The notes under the pieces: generated by a model
What the model was told of the DNA's origin: nothing
Databases searched by the model: none
The model's input: only the letters and a program-made list of their open reading frames with translations
Origin: Catenulispora acidiphila DSM 44928
GTDB lineage: Bacteria; Actinomycetota; Actinomycetes; Streptomycetales; Catenulisporaceae
Length of the DNA stretch: 64,000 bases
Reading direction: 5' to 3'
Assembly: GCF_000024025.1 (NCBI RefSeq)
Contig: NC_013131.1
Coordinates: 7,916,229-7,980,228 of the forward strand
Shown here: positions 30,731 through 38,003 of the stretch, piece after piece
How the letters are laid out: each line of letters begins with the position of its first letter
How positions within the stretch are numbered: the first letter of the stretch is position 1
Translations under genes and position numbers: made by a program

Positions 30731-30806
30731 TTCCCGGGCGGACCGATTCCGCCCCGTCCGATGGCTTGAGCCCGGAGTGACTTGGGCCGGGCTCTGCCAT
30801 CCGGAT

Positions 30807-30822
30807 GTTCATATCCATGTCC
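30807..30822. promoter_or_regulatory. possible weak operator half site before GH3
   Basis: GTTCATAT here equals the left half of the operator at 19062, but the right half is not conserved. It lies 37 bases before the GH3 start codon. It may be chance. Confidence 0.25.
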
Positions 30823-30858
30823 ACCGTTCTCATATGCGATCAGGGAGAAACCCCCGCC

Positions 30859-33660
30859 ATGCGTGTGCGTCCACTACCGCTGACGAAATCAAGAGCTTTC
30901 GTCGCCCTCACCGCTCTGAGTCTCGGCGCCGCCGGGCTCCTGAGCGCCGAACTCCCCGCCTCCGCCGCCCCCGCGGCGTCGGCCACGTGTCCCTGGGTCG
31001 GGTCGAACGCCCCGGTGGCCAGCCGTGTCAGCCAGCTGATGGCCAAGATGAGCCTGTCGCAGGAAATCTCCATGATGACCGGCACCAAGGGGTCGAGCTT
31101 CGTGGGGGAGACCCCGGCGATCGGCTCGCTGTGCATCCCCGCCATGAACCTGGAGGACGGGCCGGCCGGCGTCGCCGACGGCATGACCGGCGTCACCCAG
31201 CTGCCCGCCCCGGTGAGCGCGGCCGCCACCTGGGACACCGGCGCGGAATCCGCCTACGGCAAGGTGATCGGCTCCGAGGAGGCCGCCAAGGGCTCCACCG
31301 TCGATCTCGGGCCGACGATCAACATCGTGCGGGACCCGCGCTGGGGCCGGGCCTTCGAGTCGATCGGCGAGGACCCGTACCTCAACGGCGTTCTCGGCGC
31401 CGCGGAGATCCGCGGAGTGCAGTCGACCGGTGAGATGGCGCAGGTGAAGCACCTGGCCGCCTACAACCAGGAGACCCACCGCAACACCTCCAGCGACAAC
31501 GTGATCGTCGACCAGCGCACGCTGGAGGAGATCTACCTGCCGGCGTTCGACACGTCGGTGGGCTCGGGCGCGGCTTCGTCGGTCATGTGCTCGTACAGCA
31601 CGATCAACGGGACCTACGCCTGCCAGAACCCGAACATCATGAACGATGTCATCCACAAGCAGTTCGGCTCCAACGCGTTCATCACCTCGGACTGGGGCGC
31701 CCTGCACACGACGGCCGGCGGCGCGAACGCCGGGCTGGACCAGGACATGCCCGGTGATGACGGCTACTACGGTGGCGCGCTGCAGACAGCCGTCAACAAC
31801 GGCCAGGTCAGCAAGGCGACGATCGACGCCGCGGTCCGCCGCGTCCTGACCCAGATGTTCGGCTTCGGCATGTTCGACAACGTCTCCAGCGGCTCGCCGC
31901 GCGCGACGGTGACGTCCTCGGCGCACACCGCCACCGCCCGGCAGATCGCCGACCAGGGCACCGTGCTGCTGAAGAACGCCAACAACCAGCTGCCGCTGAC
32001 CTCCTCGACGAAGTCCATCGCCGTGATCGGTGCGGACGCCTCCACCAGCGTTCGCAGCGCCGGTGGCGGTAGCGCGTCGGTCAAGGCCGGCAGTGTGGTC
32101 AGCCCGCTGGCCGGGATCACCTCGCGGGCCGGCAGCGGGGTGACGGTGACCTACAACGACGGCTCCTCCTCCAGCTCGGCCGCGACGGCCGCCGGCAAGG
32201 CGAACGTGGCAGTGGTCTTCGTCAGCAAGTCCGAGAGCGAGGGCGGCGACCTGTCGAACATCGACCTGGCCAGCTCGGACAACGCGCTGATCTCGGCGGT
32301 CGCCAAGGCCAACCCGCACACCGTGGTGGTGCTGAACACCGGCTCCGCGGTCACCATGCCGTGGCTGTCCTCGGTCTCCGGCGTCTTCGAGGCCTGGTAC
32401 TCCGGCCAGGAGGACGGCAACGCGATCGCCGACCTGCTGTTCGGCGACGTCGACCCGTCGGGGCACCTGCCGGTGACCTTCCCGACGTCGCTCAGCCAGG
32501 TGCCGGCGAACACCGCCGCCCAGTGGCCGGGCGCCAACAACAAGGTGGAGTACTCCGAGGGCCTGCAGGTCGGCTACCGGCACTACGACGCGACCAACCA
32601 GACCCCTTTGTTCCCCTTCGGCTTCGGCCTGTCGTACACGTCCTTCAGCTTCAGCAACCTCACTGTCGGCTCGCTGACCAAGGGCGGCTCCGCCACCGTC
32701 ACCGCGAAGGTGACCAACACCGGCAGCCGTGCCGGCTCCGAGGTCGCCCAGCTCTACGTCGTGGACCCGTCGTCCTCCGGTGAGCCGTCGAAGCAGCTCC
32801 AGGGCTTCGGCAAGGTCACCCTGGCCGCCGGCGCCAGCACCACGGTCAGCTTCCCCGTCACCGAGGAGAACCTCCGGCACTGGAACACCGGGTCCAACGC
32901 CTGGACCACGGATACCGGCGCCTACGGCATCCGCGTCGGCGACTCGGCGGCGAACATCCCGCTGAGCGGCACCCTGAACGTCACCTCGGCCCAGCTCGGC
33001 CAGCCGGTGACGGTCACCAACCCGGGCCCGCAGGCCACCATCGCGGGCGCGACGGTCTCCGTGCCGGTCACCGCGAAGGACTCGACCGGCGGCCAGACGC
33101 CGGCGTTCAGCGCCACCGGGCTCCCGGCCGGCCTGAGCATCTCCGCCTCGGGCACCATCACCGGCACGCCCACCAGCGCGGGCACCACGACCGTGGACGT
33201 GACGGCGAAGGACGGCAACGGCGCCACCGCGACGACCTCGTTCGTGTGGACCGTCTCGCCCTCCACCGCCGGGGTGCCCACCGTCCCGTACGTCGGTCAG
33301 GGCGGCAAGTGCCTCGACCTGGCGGCGGACGACAACACCAACGGCGCCAAGGTCGAGATCTACACCTGCAACAACACCAGCGGCCAGTCCTGGAGCCACC
33401 TCGCCGACGGCACCCTCCGGTCCGCCGGCAAGTGCATGGACGTCAAGGGCGCCGGAACAGCCAACGGCACCCTCGTCCAGATCTACGACTGCAACGGCAC
33501 CGGTGCACAGGTCTGGAAGAGCGGCTCCAACGGCTCGTTGATAAACCCGGCCTCCGGCAAGTGCCTCGACGACCCGAAGTCCTCGACCACTGACGGCACC
33601 CAGCTGCAGATCTGGGACTGCAACGGCAATTCGAACCAGTCTTGGGTCCCGAGGGCTTGA
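30859..33660 (+). CDS. exported GH3 beta-glycosidase with Ig-like and ricin-type domains
   Basis: The protein has 933 aa. The ATG at 30859 follows AGGGAG; earlier in-frame ATGs lie in the promoter region. The Sec signal is LTKSRAFVALTALSLGAAGL to PASAA. The GH3 N-domain contains DLGPTINIVRDPRWGRAFES and KHLAAYNQ; the nucleophile Asp is in FITSDWGA near 278. The C-domain (about 370-560) and a fibronectin-III-like domain follow. A putative Ig domain sits at about 715-805 (GQTPAFSATGLPAGLSISAS) and a beta-trefoil from about 810 (GGKCLDLAADDNTNGAKVEI). GH3 enzymes release terminal beta-glucose, xylose or related sugars. It ends the plus-strand glycan locus and is bounded by hairpins on both sides. 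Confidence 0.88.
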   Translation: MRVRPLPLTKSRAFVALTALSLGAAGLLSAELPASAAPAASATCPWVGSNAPVASRVSQLMAKMSLSQEISMMTGTKGSSFVGETPAIGSLCIPAMNLEDGPAGVADGMTGVTQLPAPVSAAATWDTGAESAYGKVIGSEEAAKGSTVDLGPTINIVRDPRWGRAFESIGEDPYLNGVLGAAEIRGVQSTGEMAQVKHLAAYNQETHRNTSSDNVIVDQRTLEEIYLPAFDTSVGSGAASSVMCSYSTINGTYACQNPNIMNDVIHKQFGSNAFITSDWGALHTTAGGANAGLDQDMPGDDGYYGGALQTAVNNGQVSKATIDAAVRRVLTQMFGFGMFDNVSSGSPRATVTSSAHTATARQIADQGTVLLKNANNQLPLTSSTKSIAVIGADASTSVRSAGGGSASVKAGSVVSPLAGITSRAGSGVTVTYNDGSSSSSAATAAGKANVAVVFVSKSESEGGDLSNIDLASSDNALISAVAKANPHTVVVLNTGSAVTMPWLSSVSGVFEAWYSGQEDGNAIADLLFGDVDPSGHLPVTFPTSLSQVPANTAAQWPGANNKVEYSEGLQVGYRHYDATNQTPLFPFGFGLSYTSFSFSNLTVGSLTKGGSATVTAKVTNTGSRAGSEVAQLYVVDPSSSGEPSKQLQGFGKVTLAAGASTTVSFPVTEENLRHWNTGSNAWTTDTGAYGIRVGDSAANIPLSGTLNVTSAQLGQPVTVTNPGPQATIAGATVSVPVTAKDSTGGQTPAFSATGLPAGLSISASGTITGTPTSAGTTTVDVTAKDGNGATATTSFVWTVSPSTAGVPTVPYVGQGGKCLDLAADDNTNGAKVEIYTCNNTSGQSWSHLADGTLRSAGKCMDVKGAGTANGTLVQIYDCNGTGAQVWKSGSNGSLINPASGKCLDDPKSSTTDGTQLQIWDCNGNSNQSWVPRA

Positions 33661-33846: not shown

Positions 33847-34143
33847 TTACCTCGATCCACCCGAGCCGCGCATGACCTGGGCTGCGTCCTCGATGTGTTT
33901 CTGGACCGCAGCGGCCGCAGCATCTGGCGCCAGCTTCGCCTCGTGCATCGCCAGGCAGGACAGCGCCGCACGCAGTCCTTGGAGGTGCCCGCGCCACTCG
34001 TGCCGTTCGGCGTCCGTCTCCGGCCGCAACGAATCGGGATCGGTGCCGACCAACACGGACATGACCAGCAAGATGCCGTAGCTTTCGCTGAAGCCCTCCT
34101 TCGACAGGAGCCGAAGGACAGTGCGCTTCGGTGTATCAGTCAT
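33847..34143 (-). CDS. 98-aa hypothetical protein of the peptide-modification cassette
   Basis: The protein has 98 aa. Its ATG overlaps the end of the methyltransferase gene by 8 nt, so it belongs to the same operon. It is all-helical in appearance (RTVLRLLSKEGFSESYGILL, ERHEWRGHLQGLRAALSCLA, a final helix with VQKHIEDAAQVM), with no signal or membrane segment. I do not recognise a family. It is too short and too helical for an RRE domain or a leader peptidase. A chaperone-like or immunity role in the cassette is only a guess. Confidence 0.6.
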   Translation of the reverse strand: MTDTPKRTVLRLLSKEGFSESYGILLVMSVLVGTDPDSLRPETDAERHEWRGHLQGLRAALSCLAMHEAKLAPDAAAAAVQKHIEDAAQVMRGSGGSR

Positions 34144-34900
34144 CGGCGACTCCGCTCCTCAGGTCACCCGCATCGTCGCGGATGAAGATGGTCATGTCCT
34201 CGTCCTCGTCTCTCGGACGGACGAGGGTGAAGCCCGCGGCAGCCGCGAACGACTCCTGCTCACCGATCGTCAGCACACGTCGACGGATAACGTCCGTTGC
34301 AGGTTCTCGGTCCTCGAAGTCCCAATGCCGAGTCAAAATCAACACTTCGGCCGCCGGATCCCGGGTGTACGTAGTGGTGACGTTCGCGGACCGTCCCGAG
34401 ACCCGAGTCCGCGAAGTCCGGGACCTGTCCAGCGGAGGAAACGCAGTGAGCGTTCGAATGACCAGCACGCCTCCTGGAACGCAGTGGCCAGCGAAGGTCG
34501 CGAACGCCGCCTCAATATCGTCCGGCGCGGTGAGGTACGCCAGGGCGTTGCCGATGCAGGTCACGACTTCGAAGGACCGTCCCAGCCGTATCGTGCGCAT
34601 GTCGCCGACATACGTCTCCAACTGAGGGCGGCGCTCTCTCGAAATCTCGATCATCCCTGGCAGCAGGTCGACACCGGCCGACTTCGAGTACTTGCAAGCG
34701 AGCTGCTCCAATACCGCGCCGGTGCCACACCCGACGTCCAGCAGCGAATCAGCACCAGCCGGGCCGTGACGGTCGGCCAAGGCCACGATGGCAGCCGCGG
34801 TGTCGACGGCTTCGGCGTCAGCCATCTCGGCATACAACGCGGGCTCTCGATAGAGCAGCGACGCCTCTTCCAAGGCTTCTACCTTGCAGGAATCTGTCAC
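34136..34900 (-). CDS. class I SAM-dependent methyltransferase
   Basis: The protein has 254 aa. The GTG start overlaps the upstream stop (GTGA). Motif I is LLDVGCGTGAVLEQLA near residues 53-68, followed by AGVDLLPGMIEIS (motif II region) and CIGNALAYLTAPDDIEAAF. This is a small-molecule-type methyltransferase fold like those that act on amines or carboxylates in natural-product clusters. In this cassette it could methylate the product of the adjacent asparagine-synthetase-like enzyme and the 46-aa peptide. It is not a radical-SAM enzyme: no CxxxCxxC motif is present. The substrate is inferred from neighbourhood only. Confidence 0.8.
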   Translation of the reverse strand: MTDSCKVEALEEASLLYREPALYAEMADAEAVDTAAAIVALADRHGPAGADSLLDVGCGTGAVLEQLACKYSKSAGVDLLPGMIEISRERRPQLETYVGDMRTIRLGRSFEVVTCIGNALAYLTAPDDIEAAFATFAGHCVPGGVLVIRTLTAFPPLDRSRTSRTRVSGRSANVTTTYTRDPAAEVLILTRHWDFEDREPATDVIRRRVLTIGEQESFAAAAGFTLVRPRDEDEDMTIFIRDDAGDLRSGVADD

Positions 34901-36354
34901 AGTTCACCCCATACCAGACGCAGCCCATGCTCCAGACGCAAGACATCCGCCAGCCGAGAGTCGACCGCTGTCCCAGACTGTGCAGCACAAGTCGCTGCCT
35001 GAAGGACTGCTGGCTCGACCATGCCCAGCTCTGCCAGCAGCAGGCCGCGCTTGAGGTAGTCATCGAGAAGAGGGAGGCCGAATCTTCGCATCCCGATCTC
35101 CATGATCGGGCGGAAGGTCTCCGGGGACGACCGGTAGGCGACCCGCTTCGGGATCCGCAGGGCGAGACGCTCTCGCAACACGCGCTTACCGATGACCAGT
35201 TCTTCAGGGAGCTGACGACAGAACCGGGTCAGTGCGGGATCAGCCAACGGCGCGATCTGCCAGATCCCTGCAGCCAGCAGGCCCGGAGCGTGCGAGGCGA
35301 GCGCCATCAGCGTCGGTGTGTAGAGGTGCGCTGGAGGTGCGAGGTCGGCCTCGATATCTGGGACCGCGGCGCGTGCTTTGGCACTGAGCCACTCAGGAAG
35401 GAACTCCTCGGTGGGTGTCGCCTGGGCTTCGGCGGGGCACGCCATCAGCTCGTCGCCGCCAAACCCCGTCGCCATGGCGCGCACGCCATATGACCTGGCA
35501 GCCGCAGCGAGCGCGTCGAAGCTCTCGCAATAGTACGAACTGGCAGGGTTGTGCAGCTCGTACCGGCGACCGGCGCCAAACGGCGGATGCAGCACGGCGT
35601 GGATCGGGGTGTCCGTCAGCTTCAGCGTCTCGGCAATCGCCTCGCGCCGAGCCGTCTGGGCGATCCCCTCTTGGCCCGGCATGACCAGTCCGAAGCTCCG
35701 GACACGATGCTCGAAGAGCCCGGCGAGTTCGGCAGCCACTAGTGCCGAGTCGGCGCCGCCGGATAGTTCGACGCCGTCGGTAGGTCGTTGTTCGAGGTGC
35801 CGGCCGAGCAGGTCGCCGATAACTGCTACCGGATCGACGTCGCGCCTCAGGGCACGGCGGTGCACCGGCCGCTCGACCGGATCCGGGTACCGGACTTGAA
35901 TGCCCGCCGGACCGGCGCTGATTCGGGCACGCTCAGTCAGACACACGATGTCGGCGAACACCGTGTCCGCGCTGAAGCGGTGACGGCGGGTCAGCAGCCG
36001 AATCAGGCCTCTGTCGTTCAAGGCACCGTACGGCAGGCTGTCCATCAGGTCACTGATGCGCCAGCTCCCCGTGATCCGGTTGTTCCGGTGCCGGAGGTAA
36101 ATGGGGGCTCGCCCGAGCGGCCCTGCCTCCACGGTTACCGTGCGGCCATCAGTATCCAGGCGGACGAAGTCAGGCTCCTCACACCGCTCAGCGACGGACA
36201 AACGCAGACGTGGGCCGTCGATGACCGCAACCGACTCCAGCGCCGGATGGACGAAGGGCCGGACCCAGCCGGCAGGCCCGATCCACTGGTCTCCGTCACG
36301 GCTCCAAGTTCGCGAGCCGTCCGCGACGACCGAGATGTCGAAGCTGAGCATCAT
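34897..36354 (-). CDS. asparagine-synthetase-like ATP-dependent amide-forming enzyme
   Basis: The protein has 485 aa. Start is the ATG at 36354, or 36351, which is better spaced from AAGGA. The N-terminal third has an AsnB-like beta fold (DFVRLDTDGRTVTVEAGPLG, RITGSWRISDLMD) but lacks the Met-Cys start of a working glutaminase. The synthetase domain has the PP-loop VELSGGADSALVAAELAG near residue 193 and a downstream ATGFGGDELMACP block. Asparagine synthetases without the Cys are typical of beta-lactam synthetase, carbapenam synthetase and lasso-peptide cyclases, which adenylate a carboxylate and form a lactam. The small peptide gene lies 87 bases upstream, so a peptide substrate is plausible. 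It is coupled to the methyltransferase. Confidence 0.83.
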   Translation of the reverse strand: MMLSFDISVVADGSRTWSRDGDQWIGPAGWVRPFVHPALESVAVIDGPRLRLSVAERCEEPDFVRLDTDGRTVTVEAGPLGRAPIYLRHRNNRITGSWRISDLMDSLPYGALNDRGLIRLLTRRHRFSADTVFADIVCLTERARISAGPAGIQVRYPDPVERPVHRRALRRDVDPVAVIGDLLGRHLEQRPTDGVELSGGADSALVAAELAGLFEHRVRSFGLVMPGQEGIAQTARREAIAETLKLTDTPIHAVLHPPFGAGRRYELHNPASSYYCESFDALAAAARSYGVRAMATGFGGDELMACPAEAQATPTEEFLPEWLSAKARAAVPDIEADLAPPAHLYTPTLMALASHAPGLLAAGIWQIAPLADPALTRFCRQLPEELVIGKRVLRERLALRIPKRVAYRSSPETFRPIMEIGMRRFGLPLLDDYLKRGLLLAELGMVEPAVLQAATCAAQSGTAVDSRLADVLRLEHGLRLVWGEL

Positions 36355-36441
36355 GTTCCTTGCACGTTGGCGGTAGGGAAGCCGCGCCCGGGACGAGGAT
36401 CGGACGAGATGGGTCCCGACACGGGCGCGGCGGTCAGTGGA

Positions 36442-36582
36442 TCAGGCCTGGACGCTGCAGTGGTCGCCCTTGTCCTCGCCGTCGGCGTCGCCCGGCGCCT
36501 TCTCCGCGAGCGCCTGGGACTGGGTCGGGACGGCAGTGGCGAGCGGCCCGTCGAAGAGCTCGTCGATGATCGTGAGGTCCAC
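36442..36582 (-). CDS. 46-aa candidate precursor peptide
   Basis: This short gene starts at a GTG preceded by an ideal AGAGGAGA site; a longer in-frame reading to an ATG at 36639 is rejected because it runs through the palindrome upstream. The N-terminal part, DLTIIDELFDGPLATAVPTQ, looks like a RiPP leader (acidic, amphipathic, with a conserved-looking LFDGPL). The C-terminal part is very acidic and Gly-rich (APGDADGEDKGDHCSVQA), with a single Cys and a single Lys. Asp/Glu side chains there are possible substrates for the asparagine-synthetase-like enzyme encoded next. It lacks the Thr at -2 and YxxP motif of lasso leaders, and there is no lasso protease or RRE gene. I believe it is a real gene, but product class is unknown. 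Confidence 0.68.
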   Translation of the reverse strand: MDLTIIDELFDGPLATAVPTQSQALAEKAPGDADGEDKGDHCSVQA

Positions 36583-36713: not shown

Positions 36714-38003
36714 ATGGCCGATGAGCTCCGAGACGACATGCGAACGGCCCGACGCGGCTCTGGACTGACGTTCGCCGTGTTCGCGCGGCAGGCGGGATAC
36801 GCCGAGAGCTACCTACGCAACGTGGAGAACGGGACCAAACCCCTCACCAGCGACGTCGCCAAAGCCTACGATCGTGTGCTGGCGACCGGCGGCGAATTCA
36901 GCATTGCGGTCGACGGTCCGAGCCGACAAAAGGCACCATGGAACCGTCAGGAGACATTCACCATCCTGGTGGACATGGCAACAGGAGGCGGCGTGGACCG
37001 TCGGAGCTTCGTCACGACTACAGGTGCAGCACTGACCTCGCTGGTCGGTCATTGGTCAAGCATTCTCACCGGACAAGCCACACCGGCCGCGCTAAGCGAC
37101 ACTCCAGCAGATGCCGCCCCTAGGTTGTTCGGCCACATCGAGGAACGTCTCGAACACTTGAGACACCTCGATGACGAGTTCGACAGCGGTGAAATGGCGC
37201 GCATGGCACGCAACGAACTGGCTCTGCTGACGCGGCTTCTCAAGGCCGGTGGTTTGGACGAGACCACCGAGAACCGCGCCTATTCGCTCGCCGCAGAAGC
37301 CTCGCGACAGGTGGCATGGAACCTTTTCGACAGCAAGCAGCACGCCGCAGCCGAGCGGTACTACGAGACGGCCCTACGCGCCTCCGCTGAGGCCACGGAT
37401 GTGCTGACCGGTGCCTACGCGATGTCCTTCATGGCCATCCAGCACTACACCGCCGGCGATCCGAACGACGCTGTGAAGCTCTTGGACAACGCCGAGCAGA
37501 CCGCCGGCAGCAGGGCCACGCCGCGCATGCGCGCGATGCTTGCCGCACGCAAAGCCAGAGCTCTTTCGAAAACCGGCGACCGACGAGGATGTGCGCGAGC
37601 CCTCACGGCTGCCAGAGACCTGCTCGACCTCGGCCCTTCAGAAGACGATCCCGACTACCTGTACTGGGTCACGCAGGGCGAAATCGAGATGATCGCTGGT
37701 TCCTCAGCCCTGGAGCTGAACGATCCCGCCCGCGCAGTGCGCTGCTTCGACGCCGCGGTCAGGGCCGACTATCCCGGCGACGTGCAGTATCCCAAGAGCC
37801 ATGCCATCTACCTCGCTCGCGCTGCCGAGGCACACCTGGCCTTGCACGACTTGGACGCTGCGGTGGTCCAAGCCCGCCACGCCGGCAGGTGCCTGGGCTC
37901 GGTGGACTCAGCACGGTCGTCCTCAACGCTGGCCGGGCTGCGCCGTCAGCTGAGCGAGCATCGTGGACATCCCGCCGTGCGGGCATTCCTACAGGAGGCC
38001 TAG
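36714..38003 (+). CDS. XRE-family regulator with TPR-like sensor domain
   Basis: The protein has 429 aa. The ATG at 36714 is preferred to a GTG at 36705. Residues about 5-65 form a helix-turn-helix (LTFAVFARQAGYAESYLRNV, then NGTKPLTSDVAKAYDRVL). The rest is built of tetratricopeptide-like helix pairs (AAERYYETALRASAEATDVL, DPARAVRCFDAAVRADYPGD, AEAHLALHDLDAAVVQARHA). This is a common streptomycete layout, and the fold resembles peptide-sensing RRNPP regulators. It is divergent from the peptide cassette, with a palindrome between them, so it probably controls that operon; sensing a peptide is speculative. Its 3' end overlaps the convergent HAD gene by 15 bases. Confidence 0.83.
   Translation: MADELRDDMRTARRGSGLTFAVFARQAGYAESYLRNVENGTKPLTSDVAKAYDRVLATGGEFSIAVDGPSRQKAPWNRQETFTILVDMATGGGVDRRSFVTTTGAALTSLVGHWSSILTGQATPAALSDTPADAAPRLFGHIEERLEHLRHLDDEFDSGEMARMARNELALLTRLLKAGGLDETTENRAYSLAAEASRQVAWNLFDSKQHAAAERYYETALRASAEATDVLTGAYAMSFMAIQHYTAGDPNDAVKLLDNAEQTAGSRATPRMRAMLAARKARALSKTGDRRGCARALTAARDLLDLGPSEDDPDYLYWVTQGEIEMIAGSSALELNDPARAVRCFDAAVRADYPGDVQYPKSHAIYLARAAEAHLALHDLDAAVVQARHAGRCLGSVDSARSSSTLAGLRRQLSEHRGHPAVRAFLQEA

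Follow-up and report, generated by a model that had tools for sequence, protein, structure and literature searches.

A conserved peptide–ligase cassette in Catenulispora acidiphila suggests a family of modified peptides separate from lasso peptides

Results

Genes at the locus

The DNA under study is a stretch of 64,000 nucleotides (nt) from Catenulispora acidiphila DSM 44928 (assembly GCF_000024025.1, contig NC_013131.1, positions 7,916,229 to 7,980,228 of the forward strand), referred to as a whole as the window; the genome is a single contig of 10,467,782 bases. Four consecutive open reading frames (ORFs) on the minus strand of the window, from 36582 down to 33847, encode a 46-amino-acid (46-aa) peptide, an AsnB-like ligase, a methyltransferase and a 98-aa protein (Table 1). 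An initial annotation had described them as a four-gene cassette resembling those of ribosomally synthesized and post-translationally modified peptides (RiPPs), and every element that it named is present. The peptide ORF is preceded by a clear ribosome site, cagAGGAGAacacc; the ligase begins with MMLSF, lacks the N-terminal Cys (Cys2) and carries the PP-loop SGGADS; and the last three genes overlap, by 4 nt between ligase and methyltransferase and by 8 nt between methyltransferase and 98-aa protein. What does not stand is the place of the 98-aa protein in the core. Its sole match among the loci compared is at a second Catenulispora locus of the same type (67% identity), and we therefore treat it as accessory; the divergent NsdA-type regulator belongs to the neighbourhood. 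The peptide itself has a leader-like part with the motif LFxxxxxxxV.P, followed by a C-terminal part that contains GDHC and a Lys and an Asp separated by five residues (K-x5-D).

Table 1. Features of the cassette and of the adjoining regulator; coordinates are those of the window.
Feature	Coordinates	Strand	Length	Remarks
Candidate precursor peptide gene	36442..36582	-	46 aa	GTG start; VDLTIIDELFDGPLATAVPTQSQALAEKAPGDADGEDKGDHCSVQA
KAPGDAD codons (Lys28-Asp34)	36481..36501	-		Invariant K-x5-D segment; putative macrolactam ring
AsnB-fold ligase	34897..36354	-	485 aa	PF00733
Class I S-adenosylmethionine-dependent methyltransferase	34136..34900	-	254 aa	Methyltransf_25, E 2e-15
98-aa protein	33847..34143	-	98 aa	No family from the family scans
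HTH-TPR regulator, NsdA family	36714..38003	+		Divergent from the cassette; NF053720, 260 bits (cut-off 75)

The peptide is a conserved partner of the ligase

Relatives of the ligase were collected from three sources. A scan of genome contigs from a collection of 84,980 species gave 52 loci. Whole-genome searches found matches in 14 of 394 genomes across the class, 2 of 396 across the phylum and 5 of 14 within the family, each count including the window genome, and in 4/35, 14/200 and 8/150 genomes of three other families. These frequencies are lower bounds: the contig scan relied on only two short patterns, and 3–10 candidates per genome were scored for the class, for the phylum and in two of the searches by family. 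Among plasmids, 47 of 72,556 records match (43 from rhizobia and Aminobacter, 3 from Streptomyces and 1 from Xanthomonas), and the loci of 12 of the 47 were examined in detail. Phage records gave no ligase match, and three candidates on viral contigs proved unrelated.

After removal of duplicates, the fetched DNA comprises 97 distinct loci (numbered with the prefix L below), 84 of which include the ligase start and at least 300 nt upstream. A search for the motif found an upstream short ORF with K-x5-D near its end in 80 of these 84. When the motif was ignored and the nearest upstream ORF of 28–75 aa with a ribosome site was taken instead, K-x5-D lay within the last 36 residues of the chosen peptide at 76/84 loci. 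Of the eight failures of this blind choice, two (L042 and L139) do not satisfy the ribosome-site rule, yet each has a K-x5-D peptide; at L005 and L084 another ORF lies nearer; L027 is frameshifted; and nothing was found at L051, L088 (masked) or L090. The last four loci are also those at which the motif search returned no upstream K-x5-D ORF. At L027, upstream of 8001, the frameshift affects the peptide gene while the ligase frame is open, which may reflect decay or a sequencing error. As background, K-x5-D occurs in 105 of 6987 short ORFs of the fetched DNA (1.5%) and in 16 of 177 that have a strong ribosome site, and both sets contain the cassette peptides themselves.

The initial annotation had tied its reading to conservation of the 46-aa frame beside AsnB-like homologues, and would have given it up had the enzyme's homologues been found consistently in a known non-peptide pathway. 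The frame was found again across the Actinomycetota as well as in Proteobacteria, and a pathway of that kind was not encountered. At the level of sequence conservation, the 46-aa peptide is a genuine partner of the ligase.

An invariant Lys-Asp pair

Representative peptides from 21 lineages were scanned for every residue-spacing-residue pattern with spacings of 0–14 in the last 30 residues. K-x5-D is present in 21/21 and no other pattern reaches that number; the runner-up, G-x2-D, is found in 16/21, and the maximum in shuffled tails over 200 rounds is 13. Eleven of the representatives were picked without the motif, and all 11 carry it; eight came from a listing restricted to peptides with K-x5-D or a loose leader motif, and those of Bradyrhizobium and Rhizobium leguminosarum Vaf-108 were chosen by eye from a listing in which the motif was flagged. 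The suggestion of the initial annotation that the Asp/Glu-rich end is the substrate can be narrowed to the invariant Lys and the invariant Asp six residues further on as the probable sites; the other acidic residues vary.

The peptides fall into types that we name GDHC, YDT, DQG, KYDEI and others by their C-terminal parts. The GDHC type is found in the window, Streptomyces, Kribbella and two other genera (C. pinistramenti has GDYC), and the YDT type in Streptomyces, Spongiactinospora, Actinomadura, Catenulispora rubra and others. The leader motif LFxxxxxxxV.P is common to most actinobacterial peptides, and the usual Rhizobium peptide retains a resemblance to it; the peptides of Mesorhizobium, Bradyrhizobium, Xanthomonas and one R. 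leguminosarum are unlike the actinobacterial ones. Judged by this dissimilarity, the proteobacterial peptides are the more independent witnesses for the Lys-Asp pair. The residue preceding the Lys may be E, D, R, P, H, T, K, I or M among the 21 representatives, and this variability argues against a fixed cleavage site at that position.

One Streptomyces peptide (L046, upstream of 7332) has a leader in which DLITG occurs three times in tandem, as compared with once in the other Streptomyces peptides; its C-terminal part is unchanged.

The ligase forms a clade of its own

The ligase matches PF00733 with 43 bits (cut-off 21) and, weakly, NAD_synthase, and it has a TGFGGDE motif in addition to the PP-loop. 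The glutaminase Cys2 was found in 0/39 cassette ligases compared, while the other three AsnB-type proteins of the window genome carry MCG; lacking Cys2, the ligase falls outside asparagine synthetase B. It also scores far under the curated cut-offs of the AsnB models, of the lasso cyclase model (NF033535) and of the albusnodin/ikarugamycin cyclase model (NF033561), the best score against the last being 39.5 bits (cut-off 300). The NF033535 cut-off on its own is a weak test, as a set of 10 genomes likewise gave no match above it.

A sequence search of the Protein Data Bank returned one weak match to NAD synthetase, two weak matches to regulators and nothing else. An AlphaFold model of the ligase (mean predicted local distance difference test score, pLDDT, 78.6, i.e. 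of moderate confidence) has a predicted fold that matches TsnB9 (the top hit), beta-lactam synthetase, carbapenam synthetase and AsnB, with TM-scores of 0.43–0.63 among the first 21 hits; identity in the structural alignments at ranks 1–21, AsnB included, is 11–16%.

All 39 cassette ligases fall into a single clade (support 100/100, stem 1.51) of a tree of 53 rows. Eleven lasso cyclases form a separate clade (100/98) and three AsnB proteins a third group. These cyclases, taken from 12 loci that adjoin PF13471 genes with L175 omitted, are all actinobacterial; the tree includes no proteobacterial or albusnodin-type cyclase. The ligase of the rhizobial locus L147 is a very long branch whose placement is unsure. 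The Asp and Ser of the PP-loop are kept in 39/39 cassette ligases. At K390, the position aligned with the Lys of AsnB and the lasso cyclases, 35 of them have Lys, 3 have Arg and 1 has Glu. Furthermore, Q233, R236, R237, W365 and E412 are invariant in the 39 cassette ligases and occur in 0/11 lasso cyclases and 0/3 AsnB proteins; D248 is also invariant in the 39 but is present in one lasso cyclase.

Comparison with lasso clusters and other known systems

Among AsnB-type enzymes, it is to our knowledge the lasso cyclases that tie ribosomal peptides, each in partnership with a dedicated leader protease by which the N-terminus is freed beforehand. A search of the complete window genome for the family of this protease (B/B2; PF13471, Transglut_core3) gave 0 matches; for this family, the lack of a lasso protease that had been noted locally holds for the whole genome. 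PF13471 is missing from 11 of 30 cassette genomes, including the window's and the other four Catenulispora genomes with the cassette. For the window, the standard lasso route is thereby ruled out, with room left for other proteases. Two further absences reported in the initial annotation were also confirmed: there is no match to a PqqD-type RiPP recognition element (RRE, B1) in the five cassette and neighbour proteins (no genome-wide RRE search was made), and the lasso leader motif, YxxPxLxxxG followed by T at -2, was not seen in the cassette peptides when they were read by eye. As a control, the leader pattern flagged 8 peptides in 7 of 12 loci that have PF13471 beside a lasso cyclase; one flagged peptide has K-x5-D.

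The cassette and the lasso clusters share a ligase derived from AsnB without the glutaminase Cys, located beside a short precursor gene, and in both an Asp is the likely electrophile. They differ in the B2 protease and the leader motif, both absent here, in the separate clade and own signature residues of the ligase, and in the invariant Lys six residues before the Asp, which is a feature of the cassette. We rejected membership among lasso systems on PF13471, on the tree of the ligases, on the scores against NCBIfam models and on the leader motif, and the cassette is, by these sequence measures, separate from the lasso peptides compared here.

Clusters of the albusnodin, triculamin and lariocidin type (NF033561) combine a cyclase with a GNAT acetyltransferase, as do relatives of the window cassette. 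Triculamin is given as cyc(SKKSKPGD)GIRGKGVRG in the portion of PMC13192320 consulted, and the YDT-type peptide of Streptomyces triculaminicus (L057) was ruled out as its precursor, since the printed sequence differs. The lariocidin lasso cluster, as far as the consulted part of PMC11451635 describes it, has a GNAT gene and B1B2.

Graspetides carry a side chain-to-side chain isopeptide formed on the precursor, the same type of bond as we propose below and one with which the invariant K-x5-D is compatible, but their ligase is an ATP-grasp enzyme; the present one matches PF00733, gave no ATP-grasp match and belongs to the AsnB/PP-loop group. Beta-lactam synthetase, carbapenam synthetase and TsnB9 have the same overall fold, PP-loop chemistry and degenerate N-terminal domain as the ligase is predicted to have, and act on small molecules; unlike theirs, the conserved partner of the cassette ligase is a ribosomal peptide.

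A conserved short precursor gene beside a modifying enzyme, with a conserved C-terminal core, is the general mark of a RiPP system. The cassette has this mark, and it is very probable that it represents a RiPP family. Searches of open-access literature gave no account of this peptide–ligase family; they took in few subscription papers, and an earlier description is possible. The available part of a rhizobial PNAS paper deals with AsnC/AsnB only.

Partner genes and selection

The peptide and the ligase alone are common to all cassette types among the neighbours compared. In GDHC-type cassettes (Streptomyces, Kribbella and two other genomes with the full cassette) a methyltransferase homologue lies directly downstream of the ligase; the best NCBIfam match of the window's enzyme is the daptide methyltransferase, at 44 bits (cut-off 175). 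In the YDT, KYDEI and related types a GNAT gene follows or faces the ligase. The absence of a transporter, claimed by the initial annotation, holds for the window cassette but not for all of its relatives: an ATP-binding cassette (ABC) transporter lies downstream in all three DQG-type loci scanned (L127, L128 and L054), and an annotated ATP-binding cassette protein is found at the plasmid loci L138 and L148. L121 has neither methyltransferase nor GNAT, its other neighbours having been scanned no further than the regulator. In rhizobia, the ligase has both a phosphotransferase and a GNAT gene as neighbours at L140 and L147 and a phosphotransferase gene at L142, and a GNAT gene lies upstream in L139. 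In the ligase tree, a branch (94/93) sets the methyltransferase type apart from the rest, and two changes each are needed for the GNAT type and the third type. A peptide and ligase that stay together while the genes for tailoring, transfer and export around them are swapped are as expected for a peptide natural product.

Comparison of the two Catenulispora loci gives ratios of nonsynonymous to synonymous substitution rates (dN/dS) of 0.23 for the ligase, 0.28 for the methyltransferase and, over no more than 44 codons, 0.48 for the peptide. Counts for the core leave out the Lys and Asp codons, the only two fixed in the choice of peptides. On this basis, the GDHC core of 25 Streptomyces loci occurs in 3 DNA forms that encode 1 protein sequence, and is fixed; the 16 codons before the Lys encode 11 protein sequences in the same loci. 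In the GNAT group (33 loci, 31 DNA forms), the proportions of synonymous (pS) and nonsynonymous (pN) differences are 0.48 and 0.32 in the core and 0.48 and 0.44 in the 16 codons before the Lys.

Discussion

We propose that the ligase ties the peptide into a Lys28-Asp34 macrolactam, a reading to which we give a probability of roughly 60% and which, better than any other single explanation, accounts for the invariant pair, the superfamily of the enzyme and the absence of the protease. The 46-aa peptide would be the precursor, with its first ~27 residues as leader and its C-terminal part as the region modified. Using ATP, the ligase would activate the Asp34 side chain by adenylating its carboxylate. 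The amine on the side chain of Lys28, perhaps deprotonated by E412 or its surroundings, would then displace AMP and close a 7-residue Lys-Asp macrolactam on the precursor. With the ring closed by a Lys side chain in this way, no leader protease would be needed to free an N-terminus. The methyltransferase may then tailor the product, with the conserved GDHC segment as the probable site, and trimming would fall to an unlinked protease. Related cassettes have a GNAT acetyltransferase or an ABC transporter in place of the methyltransferase.

Several observations weigh against this proposal. Ten of the 21 representatives come from listings in which the motif was used or flagged, and the agreement among actinobacterial peptides is partly due to descent, given that the leader motif is common to most of them; they are homologous and not fully independent. 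The segment from the Lys to the C-terminus is 13–19 residues long in 21/21, a length that also suits a lasso core with a 7-residue ring, and at least one PF13471 protein is encoded somewhere in 19 of the 30 cassette genomes. Many of the peptides have a further acid at Lys+12 (K-x11-D in 12/21 lineages), and it might be an alternative partner. The invariant Lys could act in recognition or cleavage instead of bonding; the model of the ligase is, as said, of moderate confidence; and the core of the GNAT group is constrained only mildly outside the Lys and Asp. Our confidence is unaffected by the pN/pS ratios, because it rests on the Lys/Asp pair.

The main rival, which we consider unlikely, is a lasso-like route, in which an unlinked or unfamiliar protease cuts immediately before the Lys and the ligase joins the alpha-amine of that Lys to the Asp; the product would have a ring of 7 residues and a tail of 6–12 residues, perhaps threaded. 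The relatedness of the ligase to lasso cyclases, visible in the tree and in the weak NF033535 and NF033561 matches, is consistent with it, as are the segment length and the PF13471 proteins just mentioned and the GNAT gene of the lariocidin cluster. However, 11 cassette genomes, the complete one of the window among them, lack PF13471, the peptides have no lasso leader motif, the residue before the Lys is not conserved, and the ligases form a separate clade with different signature residues. Moreover, bonding through an alpha-amine would not require a fixed Lys at position 1.

Quite unlikely, in our judgement, is a modification of the Asp with another nucleophile (ammonia, a hydroxylamine-like compound or a small amine), or its conversion to an aspartimide, with the Lys serving in recognition. 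The top fold match, TsnB9, is titled a hydroxyamidotransferase, and as the Asp and the Lys alone are invariant, the sequence does not set the role of the Lys. Against this, 0/39 ligases have a glutaminase Cys to supply ammonia, and recognition alone would hardly account for a Lys-Asp spacing of exactly six residues in different phyla.

That the Lys is bonded to the second acid, or that two bonds are formed, is very improbable. K-x11-D and D-x5-D each occur in 12/21 lineages, but no second Asp follows K-x5-D in the representatives of Mesorhizobium, Bradyrhizobium, Xanthomonas and R. leguminosarum Vaf-108, and the spacing differs in Streptomyces and Kribbella, where the second acid is at Lys+10. 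Finally, an action of the ligase on a small molecule, with the peptide as a regulator or unrelated small protein, is hardly credible: beta-lactam and carbapenam synthetases of the same fold do use small molecules, but the peptide and the ligase are, among the neighbours compared, the sole ones common to all types, and an exact residue pair is kept between phyla.

Returning to the Lys-Asp macrolactam, a broader claim may be put forward, for which we see about even odds: that the cassettes constitute a new RiPP class, in which AsnB-superfamily ligases other than lasso cyclases join the side chains of Lys(i) and Asp(i+6) to a macrolactam of 7 residues on an uncut precursor. The class would extend over Actinomycetota, rhizobial plasmids and a Xanthomonas plasmid, and its diversity would come from exchanges of methyltransferase, acetyltransferase, phosphotransferase and transporter genes. 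If true, tying a Lys side chain to an Asp without a protease step would be a second and simpler macrolactam route, for which a single enzyme and a short, recognisable motif suffice. Some of the genes annotated as 'asparagine synthase-related' in Streptomyces and rhizobia would be accounted for, and genome mining would gain a rule, namely a PF00733 relative with QxxRR and E412 and an upstream ORF with K-x5-D. The class would also point to a source of peptides whose activity is to be found, one of them encoded beside nif genes and a quorum-sensing synthase in Rhizobium.

Further observations on the neighbourhoods

The Rhizobium locus in question is on pRL10 of R. johnstonii 3841 (L144, 4508-6116), where the cassette peptide and a ligase relative lie between an acyl-homoserine lactone synthase gene and nifHDK. 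The annotated coding sequence of this ligase is short (366 aa) and the match extends beyond its end, so that the gene may be damaged. Partial ligase matches beside a methyltransferase or GNAT homologue, found at L049, L055, L071, L073, L074 and L116, may represent cassette decay or assembly faults.

Many GDHC-type loci have a divergent gene similar to the NsdA-family regulator on their upstream side. A conserved 37-aa hydrophobic ORF of the VNRLAAAVGRYAGPLLIITISGSVGFVLGVAAASTPT type is located upstream of the peptide in 13 Streptomyces loci identified by pattern, and a 58-73-aa ORF of the MDGVLRIDTYEGADLPPGS type in 8 loci, in one of which (L137) it is annotated by NCBI; both are possibly immunity or export helpers. 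Extra small ORFs are placed between the regulator and the peptide gene in L025, L026, L029, L031, L034, L036 and others.

A PADLOC search for anti-phage defence matched the methyltransferase to the mads_2 defence model (50.5 bits), probably through the general methyltransferase fold, and the regulator to HTH and capH models, and nothing else. Lastly, the cassette is adjoined in the window by an ORF on the plus strand (30805-33660) whose C-terminal stretch, with its repeated QxW-like segments, resembles by eye a ricin-type lectin domain.

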